Source of the DNA: a bacterium 1xD42-67
GTDB lineage: Bacteria; Bacillota; Clostridia; Oscillospirales; Oscillospiraceae
Direction: 5' to 3'
Length of the DNA: 64,000 nt
NCBI GenBank assembly: GCA_003612335.1
Contig: RAYO01000014.1
Span: 1 to 64,000, forward strand
Below, piece after piece: positions 13,850 to 19,020 of this stretch (positions within the stretch are counted from its first letter, which is position 1; the number at the start of each line of letters is the position of its first letter). The notes under the pieces are model-generated. The model ran no database searches, was not told the origin of the DNA, and worked only from the letters and a program-made list of their open reading frames with translations. Position numbers and translations under genes: made by a program.

Positions 13850-13875
13850 CTCCCGTTATCTTTTCCCCCTCCCCT

Positions 13876-13883
13876 GCCGATAT
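13876..13883 (+). promoter_or_regulatory. Exact sigma-D (FliA)-type -10 element, GCCGATAT
   Basis: GCCGATAT is the consensus -10 of Bacillus sigma-D, the motility sigma factor. It lies 34 nt before the GTG start at 13917. The expected -35 TAAA 15-16 nt upstream is degenerate (TTAT/TATC at 13856-13860). The match is notable because the gene it precedes has flagellin-like ends. Confidence 0.4.
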
Positions 13884-13916
13884 CTGAAGAGAAAGATATG
13901 GAAGGAGGGACTGGAA

Positions 13917-16900
13917 GTGGGAGAACTGACCATCCGCAGGGACAGGATCCTTGCCGCCGCCCGGTATCAGGGGACGGACAGGGCCAAGGAGGCGGCGGCC
14001 GCCGTCAAGAGCCAGGGCCCAAGCAGGACCACAGGGCTCAACGTCTCTGAGACCCTGCAGCGGCTCATGTCCAAGGCCGGTCAGGCGGAGGAGCGGGTCC
14101 GGGAGGGCCGCAGGACCCTCCAGACCGGGGAGACGGTGCTGGCCGAGGTCCAGGACAGCCTCAGCCGCATGGCCGAGCTGGCCAAGAGGGCCGCGGAGGG
14201 CCCGCCGGAGGACCGGGCCGCCCTCCAGGAGGAGCTGGACCGCCTGGCAGAGGGGATCGGCCGCATGATCGGCGGAGCCTCAGTCAACGGCGCCCCCCTC
14301 TTCCTGGACGAGGACCTGGGCACAGTGGAGGACCTGGAGGCCCTGCTCCAGGCCGTGTCAGAGGAGGGGGAGGAGGTCCAGCCCCTCCCCGACTGGCTGG
14401 TCCGGGCGCTGGACCAGGATCTGGACCCCAAAAAGCTGCTGGACGCCCTGGGCCTGGACCGGAACGCCACCAGCGCGGATCTGCTGGCCGCGGTCATGAA
14501 CAGCTCCCTGGAGGGCAGTCCCGCCGTCGGGGCCCTGGCCGCGCTGTATCTGGGGGCGGTCATCGCCGGCAGCGCCGATCAGGCCCTGGAGGGGCTCCAG
14601 ATGCTGCTCCAGCAGGTGGCCGACGGGGTCCCCCTGGACCGGGCGGTGGAGCTGCTCACCGGCGGGCTCTTCTCTGGGATCGATGACTTCCAGGCCCGCT
14701 TCACCAGCGGCATCGCCCCGGGCCTCCAGACCTTCCTCACCCAGCTGCTGCTGTCCCAGGCCCCCGCCCAGGATCTGACCGGCTCCACGCTCCTGGGCCT
14801 CCTGGCCGGCGGAGGGGGGACGGACATGGATCTGATGCTGATGGGACTGCTCACCGTCCTCCAGGCCCCCCAGGCCCCTCCTGAAGGGGCCGCCGCCGGA
14901 GAGGGGGGCGAGGGAGCGCCTGTGTCCCATGAGGCCGCGGGCCGGGCCCTGCCCGCCGCCGCCGTCCCCCTGGGCCAGGTGCAGGGGATCGGACGGGACC
15001 TCTCCGGTCTGTCCTTCGACCCCGCCGCCGGCCTGCTCACCGTCAGCGGGACCGCCGATGTGATCCTCCAGGGGATGGGGCAGGAGCCCCAGGCGGTGCT
15101 GATCGCGGGCTCCGGCCGGGTGACGCTGCTGGACGTCCAGCTCTCTCAGCTCACCGTCACCGCCCCCCAGGCCCGGGTCTCCTCCGCAGGGGAGAGCGCC
15201 CTGGGCCAGGTCCTGCTGTCCAAGGGCGCGTCCCTCGTCCTGGAGGGGAGCGGCCTGCTGAAGATCGCCGCCCTCCGGGGGGAGGGGGGCAACGTCCTGC
15301 GCCTCGCCGGAGGGGCGGCGGTGCTCTCTCAGGATGGACGGACGCTGGAGGCCCTGTCCGTCCCTGCCGTCCTGGACGGCCCCGCCTCCTTGGCCGCAGG
15401 GGCAGGGGCGGCCGGCGTGACCAGCTCCGCCGGACGGCCCCTGGAGCCCTTCGACCTGGTCTGGAAGGCCCTTCTCCCCGGCTGGGGCGCCCTCACCTCC
15501 CTCACGGTGGACGGCCGGCAGATTCAGACCGCCCTCGGCCAGTCGTTCCCCATCCGGCTGTGGCTGGACAAGGGAGACCCCTCCCACGGCTGGCCGGTCC
15601 ACGCCCTGGCCCTCCGCGGGAAGGACGCCCTGGGCCGGCTCAAGACCCGGTATGCCTATCTGCGCTGGGACCAGCGGGCCCGGGCCTTCCAGGAGGTCCC
15701 CATGTACCCCAACCCCTTCACCGTCACTGGCGGCGAGGACGGCCTGGACTGGGTCTATGAGGAGGAGCCCCACGCCCTCCACATCCTGTCCAGCCGGGTG
15801 ACCGCCCTCTCCGGCGGCGTCGGGACCGACGCGGACCAGGTCCCCTTCAGCGGCAGGATCGTCCTGGCTGACGGGATTGGGCGGATCGGCCTGGATCTGG
15901 AGGGGGTGGACTGCCGGGTCCCCTTTGGCCGGGCCTTCGACCTGGGCCGGGAGAACCAGGTATCTCTGGCCCTCCGCCCTGAGACGGAGGAGCGCTTCGA
16001 GAGCGGTCCCGGCTTCGCAGGGATCTCTCTGGGCGAGGACACCTCCCTGACCATCCGCCGGCAGTCCGGCGACGGGGCCCCCGGGGCCCTCATCGCCGTG
16101 GGACATGACGGCGGCGCAGGGATCGGACGGGACTGCGCCGCCGGCCGGGAGCGCAGCGGCAAGATCCACATCCAGGGGGGCGTCATCCAGGCCCTTGGCG
16201 AGGGCGGCGGAGCCGGGATCGGCGCGGGGAAGCACAGTCCGGCCGGGCCCTTCCTCATGACCGGCGGCACCGTCACCGCTGTGGGCGGCAAGGGCGGCGG
16301 GGCCGGGATCGGCGCGGGCCTGGGGGCCGCGGCGGGGGATATCACCATCCGCGGCGGCTGCGTCTGGGCAGAGGCCGCCAGCCACGCCGCCGCCATCGGC
16401 GCGGCCGTCCAGGGCACTTGCGGCGATATCCAGATCGCCGGCACCGCCAAGATCGCCAAGGCGGAGGGGGGCGACCCCGGCGCGGACATCGGGGCCTGCC
16501 TCTTCGGCGGCTGCGGACAGGTGGATATCTCCGGCGGCGCAGACATCGGCCGGGCCAAGCTCCGCACCCGCTCCGGGATCCCCCTGGGGACTGGCGGGGA
16601 GGCCGTCACCCTGCCCCAGTTCCGCCTGTCCGCCGGGGCCCTGCGGCTGGACCGGCTGCTCCTGTCCACCCCGGAGCAGGCCAGGACCGCGGGCGCGGTC
16701 CTGGAGACCGGCCGCCGGTGGGTGGGCCAGATCCAGTCGGTCTACAGCGCCCTGTATGTCCAGATGGAACAGAGCGCCGCCGGCCTGCGCAGCGTCCAGC
16801 GGTATATCAGCGTCGCCCGGGTGAGGGACACCAGCGCGGCCGGGGCCCTGCTGGAGGATATGCGCCGGTCCATCCTCCTCCAGCCGGGCCAGGCCATCGA

Positions 16901-16955
16901 CACCCACAGCGGCCGGGGCGCCGGCGATGTGGGCCAGCTCCTGGACCGGAGATAG
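13917..16955 (+). CDS. Flagellin-like ends fused to a large beta-helix-like repeat core
   Basis: Very unusual 1012-residue protein. Residues ~40-127 resemble the flagellin N-terminal D1 rod (LQTGETVLAEVQDSLSRMAEL, then EELDRLAEGIGRMI and VNGAPLF). Residues ~920-1012 resemble the flagellin C-terminal rod (LRSVQRYISVARVRDTSAAG, then SILLQPGQAI). Between them lie an Ala/Leu-rich helical part (~130-400), a beta-rich part, and about five repeats of ~31 residues (~730-880) built on GGGAGIGAG and GxIxIxGG, typical of right-handed beta-helix adhesins. GTG 13917 is set by GGAGGGA 6 nt upstream. No signal peptide, as for true flagellins. The neighbour is a chemotaxis receptor. Role unknown: a filament subunit, cap or adhesin is inference. 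Confidence 0.7.
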   Translation: MGELTIRRDRILAAARYQGTDRAKEAAAAVKSQGPSRTTGLNVSETLQRLMSKAGQAEERVREGRRTLQTGETVLAEVQDSLSRMAELAKRAAEGPPEDRAALQEELDRLAEGIGRMIGGASVNGAPLFLDEDLGTVEDLEALLQAVSEEGEEVQPLPDWLVRALDQDLDPKKLLDALGLDRNATSADLLAAVMNSSLEGSPAVGALAALYLGAVIAGSADQALEGLQMLLQQVADGVPLDRAVELLTGGLFSGIDDFQARFTSGIAPGLQTFLTQLLLSQAPAQDLTGSTLLGLLAGGGGTDMDLMLMGLLTVLQAPQAPPEGAAAGEGGEGAPVSHEAAGRALPAAAVPLGQVQGIGRDLSGLSFDPAAGLLTVSGTADVILQGMGQEPQAVLIAGSGRVTLLDVQLSQLTVTAPQARVSSAGESALGQVLLSKGASLVLEGSGLLKIAALRGEGGNVLRLAGGAAVLSQDGRTLEALSVPAVLDGPASLAAGAGAAGVTSSAGRPLEPFDLVWKALLPGWGALTSLTVDGRQIQTALGQSFPIRLWLDKGDPSHGWPVHALALRGKDALGRLKTRYAYLRWDQRARAFQEVPMYPNPFTVTGGEDGLDWVYEEEPHALHILSSRVTALSGGVGTDADQVPFSGRIVLADGIGRIGLDLEGVDCRVPFGRAFDLGRENQVSLALRPETEERFESGPGFAGISLGEDTSLTIRRQSGDGAPGALIAVGHDGGAGIGRDCAAGRERSGKIHIQGGVIQALGEGGGAGIGAGKHSPAGPFLMTGGTVTAVGGKGGGAGIGAGLGAAAGDITIRGGCVWAEAASHAAAIGAAVQGTCGDIQIAGTAKIAKAEGGDPGADIGACLFGGCGQVDISGGADIGRAKLRTRSGIPLGTGGEAVTLPQFRLSAGALRLDRLLLSTPEQARTAGAVLETGRRWVGQIQSVYSALYVQMEQSAAGLRSVQRYISVARVRDTSAAGALLEDMRRSILLQPGQAIDTHSGRGAGDVGQLLDRR

Positions 16956-16958
16956 GAC

Positions 16959-17000
16959 AGAGCCGGCCTGCGGCATCCCTTGCCGCAGGCCGGCTCTTTG
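16959..17000. terminator. Terminator between the flagellin-like gene and the chemotaxis receptor
   Basis: Perfect 17-bp stem AGAGCCGGCCTGCGGCA / TGCCGCAGGCCGGCTCT with a 5-nt loop, then TTTG. It separates convergent genes. Confidence 0.75.
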
Positions 17001-17017: not shown

Positions 17018-18991
17018 TCAGTCCCTGGCCAGGGTGAAGCGGTCCACCAGCTGCTTCAGGCTGGACGCCTCGGCGGACAGCTCCTGGCTGGCGGCGGCGC
17101 TCTCCTCGGCAGTGGCGGAGTTGGTCTGGACCACGGCGGAGATCTGGTCCACGCCCTCGGTGACCTGGGTGATGGCATTGGTCTGCTCCTCCACCGCCTT
17201 CACCACGATGTCCATCTGGGCGGTCACGTGACCGGCGGAGACGCTGGTCTGCTCCAGGGCCTCGTTCACCCGCTCCACCGCCTGGATCCCCTCTCCCACA
17301 GAGGCGATGGACCCCTCGATCAGCTCCTTGGTGGCCTTGGCGGCCTCATCCGACTTGGAGGCCAGATCGCGCACCTCGTCGGCCACCACGGCGAAGCCCT
17401 TGCCGGCGGAGCCGGCCCGGGCCGCCTCCACAGCGGCGTTCAGCGCCAGGATATTGGTCTGGAACGCGATGTTCTCGATGGAGGCGATGATCTTGGAGAT
17501 CTCCTGGGAGGAGCTGGAGATCTTCTCCATGGCCGCGTTCAGTTCCTTCATGTGCTCTACGCTGGTGCCCAAATGGCCGCCCGCCTGGCCCACGAAGCGC
17601 CCGGCCTCCTCGGCGGCGGCGGCCGTCATCTTGGCGCTGGAGGAGATGTCGTTGATGGTGGCCGCCAGCTCCTCCACAGAGCTGGCCTGCTCCACAGAGC
17701 CCTGGCTCAGCCGCTGCGCGCCGTTGGAGACCTGGTCGCTGGCAGAGGACACCTGGCCGGCGGAGGCCTCGATCTGGCGCATGGTGCCGCTCAGCTCTAC
17801 CTTCAGGGTCCGCATGGAGCGGAGGATCCCCTGGAACTCGCCCACATAGGCGTCGCGGTGGGAGGAGCGGATGTCGAAGTTCTGATTCGCCATCTCGGTG
17901 AGCAGATAGGCGATATCGTTGATGATCGTGTTCAGGCCGTTCACCAGCTCCGCTGTGGAGCGGGTGAGGACCGCTGTCTCGTCCTGGCCGTGGGTCTCGG
18001 GGACGGGAGACTGGAGATCGCCGGCCACCAGCAGCTTCATCCGCTCTGCGCAGGCCCGCATGGGCACGCTGATGTTGCTGGACAGCTTCAAAGCCACCAC
18101 GATGGAGATCAGGATGGAGGCCACGATCACCGCTACGTTGATGATCATGCCAAAGTATGTATCAGCCAGATAGTCGGTCTTCAGGGCGGTGACCGCCACG
18201 CTCCAGCCGTCGGTCCCGCCCACAGGCGCATAGGCGATGAACCGGTGTCCGTCAGTATCCTTGAAGCTGCCGAAGCCGTTCCTGCCCTGGCGCATCTCTA
18301 TGTGGACCGAGGCCAGCCCCCTCAGCCCCTTGTCGCTCTGGGCCTCCCGCTCCACGTTCTGGGTGGTGATGGTATCCAGGGTGACGTCGGCGATGGTGTC
18401 GCCCGACTTGTTGATCATATAGGCCCGGCTGTGCTCGCTCACCGAGATGGAGGAGACGATGTCGTTCAGGAAGGTCTCCGGGGGCACGAAGTAGACCACG
18501 CCCACGATGCGGCCGTCCCGGCTCCCGCCGTTATAGACCGGCGCCGCCACCATGATGGACAGCTCCCCCGTGATCTTGCTGATCAGCGGCTCGGAGACAT
18601 AGACGTTGCCCTGCATGGCCTGCTGCACGTATTCCCGGTCGGAGTAGTCCTTCCCGTCGAACATGCTGAAGCCGTTGGAGCCGATGAGGTTGCCCCGCTG
18701 GAAGCCGTGCATGGAGATCCGTTCGTCGATGATGGCCCGCTTCTCTTCCACCGATACGGTCACATCGGACAGCTGGGGGATGCAGCCGGTGTCCATAGCC
18801 ACGTTCTTATAAGCGGTCAGCTCCTGCTCGATCCGTTCCGCCGCCAGCACCGCAGTCTCGCTCATCATCTGGCCCACTGTGGCGATGGTGCTCCGGTAGT
18901 TCAGGATGATGCTGGCCGACCCCACCACGCCCAGCGCGATCAGGACCGTTGCTATCAGACATACTGTGATCTTTTTGCGGATACTCTTCAT
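17018..18991 (-). CDS. Methyl-accepting chemotaxis protein with dCache-like sensor
   Basis: Transmembrane chemoreceptor that signals to CheA/CheW. The 657-residue product has a first membrane segment (~9-30), a ~250-residue extracellular sensor with Cache-type features ([40 protein letters not shown]), a second membrane segment (~275-300), a HAMP region and a long signalling coiled coil whose tip carries the conserved [23 protein letters not shown] 18991 is preferred to the GTG at 19003, which overlaps the ribosome site GAGGTG. It has its own sigma-A promoter and converges with the flagellin-like gene. No che or flagellar genes are in the window; the ligand is unknown. Confidence 0.93.
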
Positions 18992-19020
18992 CTCTAAATG
19001 CACCTCGATCGTACAATGTC

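Follow-up and report, generated by a model that had tools for sequence, protein, structure and literature searches.

What is a protein that carries the ends of a flagellin around a very large middle of another kind: a filament subunit, a passenger of the flagellar export machine, or something else? The question is raised by a gene in a 64,000-nucleotide stretch of DNA from the Oscillospiraceae bacterium 1xD42-67 (contig RAYO01000014.1, positions 1 to 64,000 of the forward strand, hereafter the window), where an open frame at 13917-16955 (+) with a GTG start encodes a product of 1012 amino acids. By the tests made here this protein counts neither as a normal flagellin nor as a flagellinolysin, the catalytic type of flagellin, yet it is descended from them. 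We propose, with a probability of about one half, that it is a flagellin paralogue with a dead protease, made late in flagellar assembly and exported by the flagellar apparatus, which binds glycans on the surface or after secretion and does not act as a normal filament subunit. Its ancestry, at both ends and in the protease remnant, the loss of catalytic residues, the sigma-28 promoter, the near-exclusive co-occurrence with FlhA and purifying selection are all supported by computation. A first-pass annotation of this DNA had seen flagellin-like rods around a repetitive beta-helix core, and had thought either of a filament subunit or cap or of a protein that exploits the export signal of flagellin to get outside; it had missed the promoter, the remnant of a flagellinolysin domain and an additional beta-helix lying upstream.

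Both ends derive from flagellin

One scan of the genome collection gave 53 loci, of which four belong to isolates with a strain name. From 54 sequences, two contig fragments with no start (L067, L089) were excluded, and the 52 that were left, the window included, were used for the promoter and HExxH counts; the family alignment has 49 rows, three truncated sequences (L068, L075, L095) having been excluded.

At the N-terminal end, Pfam Flagellin_N (PF00669) matches with an E value of 1.2e-8 (35.6 bits versus a cut-off of 26.6), only residues 39-129 being aligned, to profile positions 42-134, and the same profile is matched by 48 of the 49 aligned members at E<=0.01. Pfam Flagellin_C (PF00700) gives no match at E<=10 for the 1012-residue protein alone. 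A profile built from the 49 sequences aligns both ends with solved flagellins, including 9hpz (E 4.8e-25) and 6t17, where the best stretch is 887-1015 and reaches the last residue of 6t17. On the predicted model, structural comparison with VIA-align finds both ends packed as in flagellins (Z ~19), the first and last aligned residues being 36 and 970; with 9hpz, for example, Z is 18.9 and the root-mean-square deviation (rmsd) 2.2 for 173 residues between 39 and 967. The rod blocks quoted at first pass are present in the translation (LQTGETVLAEVQDSLSRMAEL and RVRDTSAAGALLEDMRR), and the idea of flagellin-like rods has come through the two outcomes that the first-pass annotation had itself named as fatal to it, namely a predicted structure in which the ends form no antiparallel D1-like coiled coil and no flagellin profile score at either end: in the prediction the ends pack like those of flagellins, and a flagellin profile scores at the N-terminal one. 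Since Flagellin_N is matched from profile position 42 onward and the profile alignment takes in both ends, both rods are real and D0 is the part that has changed.

The change is plainest at the N-terminal tip. Residues ~1-40 are polar, have a predicted local distance difference test (pLDDT) score of 32-35 and do not qualify as the N-terminal D0 (ND0) helix of a flagellin, the hydrophobic moment of residues 11-34 being 0.40 as compared with 0.94 in 27 flagellins that were chosen by motif from the loci gathered in this analysis. They carry a motif of their own, whose columns in the 49 sequences are occupied by E3 in 45, L4 in 47, I/V6 in 49, R7 in 44, R8 in 45 and K25 in 45, the relatives' start codons having been set by us at this motif. 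No hydrophobic signal segment was found in the first 60 residues of the 49 sequences, the maximum 19-residue mean hydropathy being 0.47. The last 35 residues have a hydropathy of -0.46 versus 0.00 in flagellins, and the suggestion of degenerate D0 tips is confirmed for the N-terminal one, the evidence at the C-terminal one being mixed.

Neither role first thought of is supported in the form in which it was put. Literal reuse of the flagellin export signal cannot hold because the ND0 segment has been replaced. A filament subunit or cap is opposed by an N-terminal D0 that is polar, hardly amphipathic and predicted to be disordered, and by the absence of any FliD family from the window protein and from the 49 members (Pfam, E<=0.01); matches of the window protein to FlgL are weaker than those to flagellin. 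It might also be argued that this is an ordinary flagellin with a beta-helix in its hypervariable region and odd ends due to sequence drift, as a Flagellin_N match above the cut-off would allow, but this is improbable given that all 49 members have undergone the ND0 change and show the same new, conserved motif there, and that the same genome has a canonical flagellin of 921 amino acids (L042). A phage origin was rejected, as no PHROGs family matches at E<=0.1.

A protease domain without its catalytic half

The core between the rods opens with a region related to flagellinolysin. All six orthologues from related genomes match NF033876 (flagellinolysin) with E values of 1.1e-10 to 1e-5 and up to 41.5 bits, in a model that also matches plain flagellins and so must cover part of the flagellin ends. 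The best stretches in the six cover profile positions 148-333 and start after HExxH in the numbering of L040, a flagellin described below. At E<=0.01 the model is matched by 43 of the 49 aligned members, the window protein being outside that set, and in one hhalign comparison family residues 100-340 align with L040 at a probability of 98 and E 4.5e-13. The catalytic apparatus itself is gone: the HExxH zinc-binding motif is found in 0 of the 52 sequences, the stretch ahead of LPxWL, HExxH included, is missing from the family, and the Glu that would be the third zinc ligand is present in 3 of 49, gapped in 4 of 49 and replaced by Arg in the window protein. Common ancestry of residues 157-285 with the C-terminal lobe of the flagellinolysin peptidase is well supported by these sequence comparisons, and an active protease is ruled out by the missing HExxH.

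A protein that still has all of these parts is L040 (L040:4008-7721 (+), related genome G034, contig C58), a flagellin of 1238 amino acids with canonical D0-D1 ends (Pfam E 6.6e-38 at the N-terminus and 2.8e-26 at the C-terminus), an HExxH flagellinolysin-type domain (HEMIH at residue 317, WFIEG at 349) and GGAGIG-type beta-helix repeats. Its beta-helix is homologous to that of the 1012-residue protein (30.9% identity, E 1.4e-9) and the order of the domains is identical. An intact flagellinolysin above the NF033876 cut-off occurs in 0 of 150 sampled genomes of the same taxonomic family, the best being L040 with 142.3 bits. A search of 400 genomes with the L040 peptidase segment gave matches in nine: its own, those of the family members G068, G071 and G138, the further genomes G184, G234, G370 and G394, and, weakly, G236.

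A missing catalytic half and a degenerate N-terminal D0 are also what a decaying, functionless pseudogene of flagellinolysin would show. This explanation is already contradicted and almost certainly wrong. All 49 aligned sequences have intact long frames, the other 48 at 42-59% identity to the window protein; the ratio of nonsynonymous to synonymous substitution rates (dN/dS) lies at 0.12-0.32 for every one of the 28 pairs compared, whose identities are 75-98.5%, which argues against a pseudogene; and the promoter described below has been kept. By segment, the median dN/dS is 0.24 for residues 1-40 and 0.16 for residues 986-1010.

Two predicted beta-helices and a variable repeat

The first-pass view of a beta-helix core in the hypervariable region stands as far as the beta-helix goes, by VIA-align, but was incomplete, since at the start of the core stands that half of a flagellinolysin domain which has no catalytic residues. 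On the predicted model, residues 597-881 superpose on 4phb (Cthe_2159) with Z 24.4 and rmsd 2.2 for 221 residues at 23% identity. Residues 345-606, modelled alone with a pLDDT of 91.6, split into a further beta-helix at 347-513 and a bridging beta domain; the former again has Cthe_2159 as its best structural match (Z 11.8 over 152 residues), and the matches of the latter (Z 4-5.7) are too weak for naming its fold. Membership of PF14262, the family of Cthe_2159, was rejected on sequence for want of a profile match, the same beta-helix fold being found on the predicted model. Because Cthe_2159 is matched by fold and not by sequence, the likeness is suggestive of polysaccharide binding and does not establish a function.

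Five repeats of ~31 residues had been proposed at first pass and were confirmed with slightly shifted centres. The motif [GA]A[GAD]IG, which was picked after inspection of the sequence, occurs at residues 733, 765, 795, 824 and 855 (and at 874), five in a row at ~31-residue spacing, and not one of 5000 composition shuffles produced a run of as many as three. Plain identity autocorrelation of the region is not significant, the observed value being reached by 715 of 2000 shuffles, because the segment is so rich in Gly and Ala. The conserved part of the region is the surrounding beta-helix, with the pattern YPNPFTVTGG...DW...GG.GTDA...PFSGR, and GGAGIG-type repeats are also found in an SLH-domain protein, L041.

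Predicted expression with the late flagellar genes and occurrence in genomes with FlhA

The pattern NTTA[TA]-N14-16-G[CA]CGAT[AG], set after viewing the sequences, lies upstream of the gene in 47 of the 52 sequences, the window included, and has only 50 sites in 1.70 Mb on both strands; five sequences (L047, L049, L079, L088, L091) have no such pattern within 250 bp. The motif resembles the known sigma-28 consensus. As a check less tied to the 1012-residue gene, the pattern TWAWNTTTN{10,12}GCCGATA was run against nine related genomes (the gene is present in six), giving 27 matches (25 distinct places) versus 1 for the reversed control. The genes downstream of these sites are those of the present family (four times), flagellin, FliD (twice), the anti-sigma factor FlgM, CheA and unknowns. 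Nine of the downstream proteins were compared with Pfam, which gave CheA matches over the Hpt cut-off for L161 and L165 and a P2 match below the cut-off for L151, and the downstream proteins of L152, L164 and L177 are CheA-like by eye; a clear downstream gene is lacking at L166, L169, L173/L175 and L176, and L153, L162 and L163 are ambiguous. In the window genome, a looser pattern (GMCGATA at -10) occurs in three places versus 1 for the control, one of the three being at the 1012-residue gene. A FliA-type sigma factor is encoded in all eight genomes checked (seven above the cut-off), and a relaxed sigma-28 motif was found at 4 of 14 flagellin genes scanned, some of them with shorter upstream sequence. 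Judged from these patterns, the gene is a well-supported candidate member of the sigma-28 late flagellar regulon.

The gene occurs almost exclusively together with FlhA. A full-length copy is present in 7 of the 150 sampled genomes, the gene's own included, and an FlhA match in 33, among which are all 7 carriers; the hypergeometric chance of this overlap is ~1e-5, computed with 31 and 32 positives and with kinship ignored. FlhA was found in 48 of the 50 genomes that hold the named loci. Two genomes of the same genus (G039, G128) have neither FlhA nor a full-length copy, G128 showing a match to the beta-helix repeats only, and the gene also occurs in two genomes of another family of the same order (G681, G575). 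The window genome encodes FlhA, a FliA-type sigma factor, the canonical flagellin L042 and, as judged by eye, a gene of the FlgL kind; the first-pass annotation had suggested a search for flagellar export genes and for a second, normal flagellin. Record titles of the loci name Lawsonibacter, Oscillibacter, Flintibacter muris, Flavonifractor, Neglectibacter, Colidextribacter and Oscillospiraceae, others giving just Clostridia, Clostridiales, Firmicutes or bacterium; the locus L079 is that of the cultured commensal Flintibacter muris DSM 110149. Neighbouring genes are common to small groups of loci only, the largest neighbour cluster comprising 7 of 52 and two groups of five loci each sharing the gene immediately upstream, which makes the promoter and the gene the retained unit.

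Layout of the gene and adjacent observations

The features are collected in Table 1. The GTG start is supported by the GGAGGG site and by the conserved motif that opens there in relatives. AlphaFold2, run on the 49-row alignment, gave a mean pLDDT of 78.9 and placed helices at 43-94 and 97-120, a helical block of varying confidence at 159-315, beta structure at 348-900 and a helix at 919-966, followed by short uncertain helices.

Table 1. Gene features and protein segments, with their positions in the window
Feature	Position	Strand	Basis
Sigma-28 type promoter, TTATCTTT-N12-GCCGATAT	13856..13883	+	Pattern present in 47/52 sequences, window included
Ribosome-binding site, GGAGGG	13904..13909	+	Sequence ahead of GTG start
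Residues 1-42, predicted disordered tail with motif MGEL[TS][IV]RRNR...PRYQ...KTEK replacing the flagellin ND0 helix	13917..14042	+	
Residues 43-120, flagellin D1 N-terminal helices	14043..14276	+	Flagellin_N E 1.2e-8; structural match to flagellins
Residues 157-285, flagellinolysin metallopeptidase C-terminal lobe without the HExxH half	14385..14771	+	NF033876, hhalign
Residues 347-513, first predicted beta-helix	14955..15455	+	Separate model, pLDDT 91.6; Cthe_2159 Z 11.8
Residues ~509-595, beta-sandwich-like bridging domain with weak Ig/FnIII-like matches (tentative fold)	15441..15701	+	Z 4-5.7
Residues 597-881, second predicted beta-helix, Cthe_2159-like, with GGAGIG-type repeats at 732-878	15705..16559	+	4phb Z 24.4
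Residues 919-966, flagellin D1 C-terminal helix	16671..16814	+	Predicted helix; both-end alignment to flagellins
Residues 967-1012, diverged C-terminal segment at the C-terminal D0 (CD0) position	16815..16952	+	Profile alignment, low model confidence

Several other observations were made at or near these loci. An 872-codon open frame antisense to the gene (14358-16976 (-)) is probably a by-product of high G+C content, and a chemoreceptor-like gene at 17018-19003 (-), of the methyl-accepting type by eye, is convergent to the 1012-residue gene and absent from the neighbours common to several loci. Elsewhere in the genome (G000), the two other sites of the looser promoter pattern precede L097:1130-1465 (-) and L098:1564-2256 (+), which encode proteins of 112 and 231 amino acids of unassigned family with short polar N-terminal tails. 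A protein type of ~175-200 amino acids with the signature KVPPEDERYL...EWxSVL recurs after sigma-28 promoters in relatives (L160, L168, L174) and at L097:549-1112 (-), where it is the second gene after the promoter; some N-termini of this type (MELERTERRNRSAPARAIP) resemble the MGELTIRRNR motif by eye. Near the normal flagellin gene, on contig C82, lies a fragment (L001:2701-3342 (-)) which, from its CxxC motifs, we take to be an IS605-type TnpB.

A proposed history and role

The ancestor of the family would have been a catalytic flagellin, or flagellinolysin, that already bore a beta-helix, as L040 still does. In the family, the HExxH-helix half of the protease domain would then have gone, the flagellin chemistry of the N-terminal D0 would have been lost and the C-terminal D0 altered, and an extra beta-helix would have been placed upstream of the Cthe_2159-like one. 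With a sigma-28 promoter of its own, the gene would be expressed late, at the stage at which substrates of the filament class are admitted by the flagellar type III gate, and the product may leave the cell through that gate; as there is no Sec-type or hydrophobic signal, the flagellar route is the likeliest if the protein leaves the cell, and export of the 1012-residue protein by the flagellar machine is likely. Once outside, the two D1 rods may fold back into a coiled coil that serves as a base, and the beta-helices would bind a polysaccharide, which might be a glycan of mucus or of plants or might belong to the surface of the cell itself. Lacking ND0, the protein should have no ordinary entry into the filament core, given established flagellin biology, and it would either be released, like Campylobacter FlaC, or be kept on the surface of the cell or filament. 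We infer the export route, the absence of polymerisation, the location and the glycan ligand from these considerations, and the family in flagellated gut bacteria is probably a secreted adhesin and not a filament brick. The broader statement that flagellated gut Oscillospiraceae converted a catalytic flagellin to a dedicated flagellar-exported glycan adhesin, with its protease disarmed, its N-terminal polymerisation segment exchanged for a new, conserved targeting motif and a second beta-helix added, is a tentative one to which we give somewhat less than an even chance.

A number of results weigh against this proposal. The window protein itself scores weakly with NF033876 (E 0.054, 12.9 bits, short of the curated cut-off of 205 bits), and its genome has no match to the L040 peptidase segment query. 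FlhA was not found in two of the genomes that hold named loci (G753, G757) and was found as a fragment only in another (G763). The flagellin gene of the window genome (L042) has no sigma-28 site in the 450 bp next to it, for which reason support for the motif rests on the nine-genome scan and the resemblance to the consensus. The PF14262 profile matches nothing in the genome at E<=10, a phmmer search of the PDB with the beta-helix returned enolases only (best E 0.33), and neither model had a match at E<=0.001 when Foldseek was used by itself, so that the statements on fold rest on the VIA-align Z scores. The count of GGAGIG-type motifs is zero in 9 of the 49 members, and the repeats are thus not essential and constitute the variable part of the region.

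Two further sets of results on this side favor specific rivals. Amphipathicity of the C-terminal segment equals that of flagellins (moment 0.88 in both), which leaves room for some assembly. A minor structural subunit, in which the D1 rods enter the filament, the hook junction or the tip and the beta-helices are displayed on the flagellum as in flagellinolysin, would make use of a D1 pair that is intact in the prediction, of a C-terminal segment that also aligns to the CD0 end of flagellin, and of a sigma-28 promoter like those of the relatives' flagellin and FliD genes. Replacement of the N-terminal D0 by a polar, disordered motif speaks against such a subunit, as do the FliD and FlgL results given above, and we regard it as unlikely. 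The second set concerns the inside of the cell. The N-terminal motif is conserved beyond what a generic type III signal needs and could mean binding of an intracellular partner. Cys is found at 0.71 per 100 residues versus 0.03 in the 27 flagellins (~20-fold), a content more in keeping with a cytosolic protein than with an axial protein of the flagellum. This is the strongest point against the proposal, although it is softened by L041, the SLH-domain beta-helix protein of a relative, with 18 Cys in a frame of 1168 residues. A cytosolic regulator or assembly factor, whose D1 rods and N-terminal motif would bind flagellin, FliS, FliW or FlgM and so tune late export, would account for both features and for the absence of a Sec-type signal, but seems quite unlikely for a protein with two beta-helices and a bridging domain, ~540 residues that have a fold match to a polysaccharide-binding protein, and with GGAGIG-type repeats shared with the SLH-domain protein.

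If the protein is indeed an exported glycan binder, as we propose, commensals would be using the flagellar apparatus as a routine route of secretion for a large protein that is not part of the filament, and host TLR5 could encounter a free D1 rod that lacks D0 and yet not be activated in the normal way. The D1 block at residues 82-107 (LSRMAELAKRAAEGPPEDRAALQEEL) presumably resembles the flagellin stretch contacted by TLR5, and without D0 it might bind TLR5 without full activation; if the loss of D0 is real, anyone studying how TLR5 recognises flagellin would have in this family a naturally occurring D1 module devoid of D0. The family also allows the path to be traced that led from a polymer brick, by way of an enzymatic flagellin, to a conserved protein which is seemingly neither, and its size makes it suited to the questions what gut commensals use flagellar export for beyond motility and whether flagellin D1 modules act as surface or secreted adhesins.

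Comparison with known systems

Among the open-licence PMC papers listed in the literature searches, none describes an architecture of this kind. The closest relative is flagellinolysin (NF033876), which in the excerpts considered here of Eckhard et al. (2017; PMC5595980) has flagellin ends around a gluzincin-type peptidase domain, with the HExxH zinc-binding histidines conserved in all flagellins identified there, and to whose C-terminal lobe residues 157-285 are homologous. The 1012-residue family differs in having HExxH in none of 52 sequences, in having mostly lost the third Glu, in its non-canonical ND0 and in the added beta-helices. FlaC of Campylobacter jejuni, a non-structural flagellin that is secreted and not assembled according to one paper (PMC5466977; see also PMC4863622), is likewise a flagellin-derived protein produced beside structural flagellins; it has D0-D1 largely without variable domains, whereas the 1012-residue protein is without ND0, has a very large middle and is a putative secreted protein only. 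Cthe_2159 of Clostridium thermocellum (4phb, 4peu; PF14262), which in part of one paper (PMC6712302) binds celluloses and polygalacturonic acid, is similar in that the second beta-helix superposes on it and different in that there is no sequence-profile match, the likeness coming from the predicted fold alone.

The rods find some of their best structural matches in entries titled 'bacterial cell-surface flagellin', and we take 3k8v, 3k8w and 2zbi to be structures of the P5 type, P5 being a protein which to our knowledge has neither a beta-helix nor a protease remnant. As summarized in a section of a review (PMC8286568), P5 of Sphingomonas sp. A1 is a flagellin homologue involved in cell-surface alginate binding. 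It is thus, in another phylum, a flagellin relative that serves as a polysaccharide binder at the cell surface, which is one of the roles that we propose for the 1012-residue protein.

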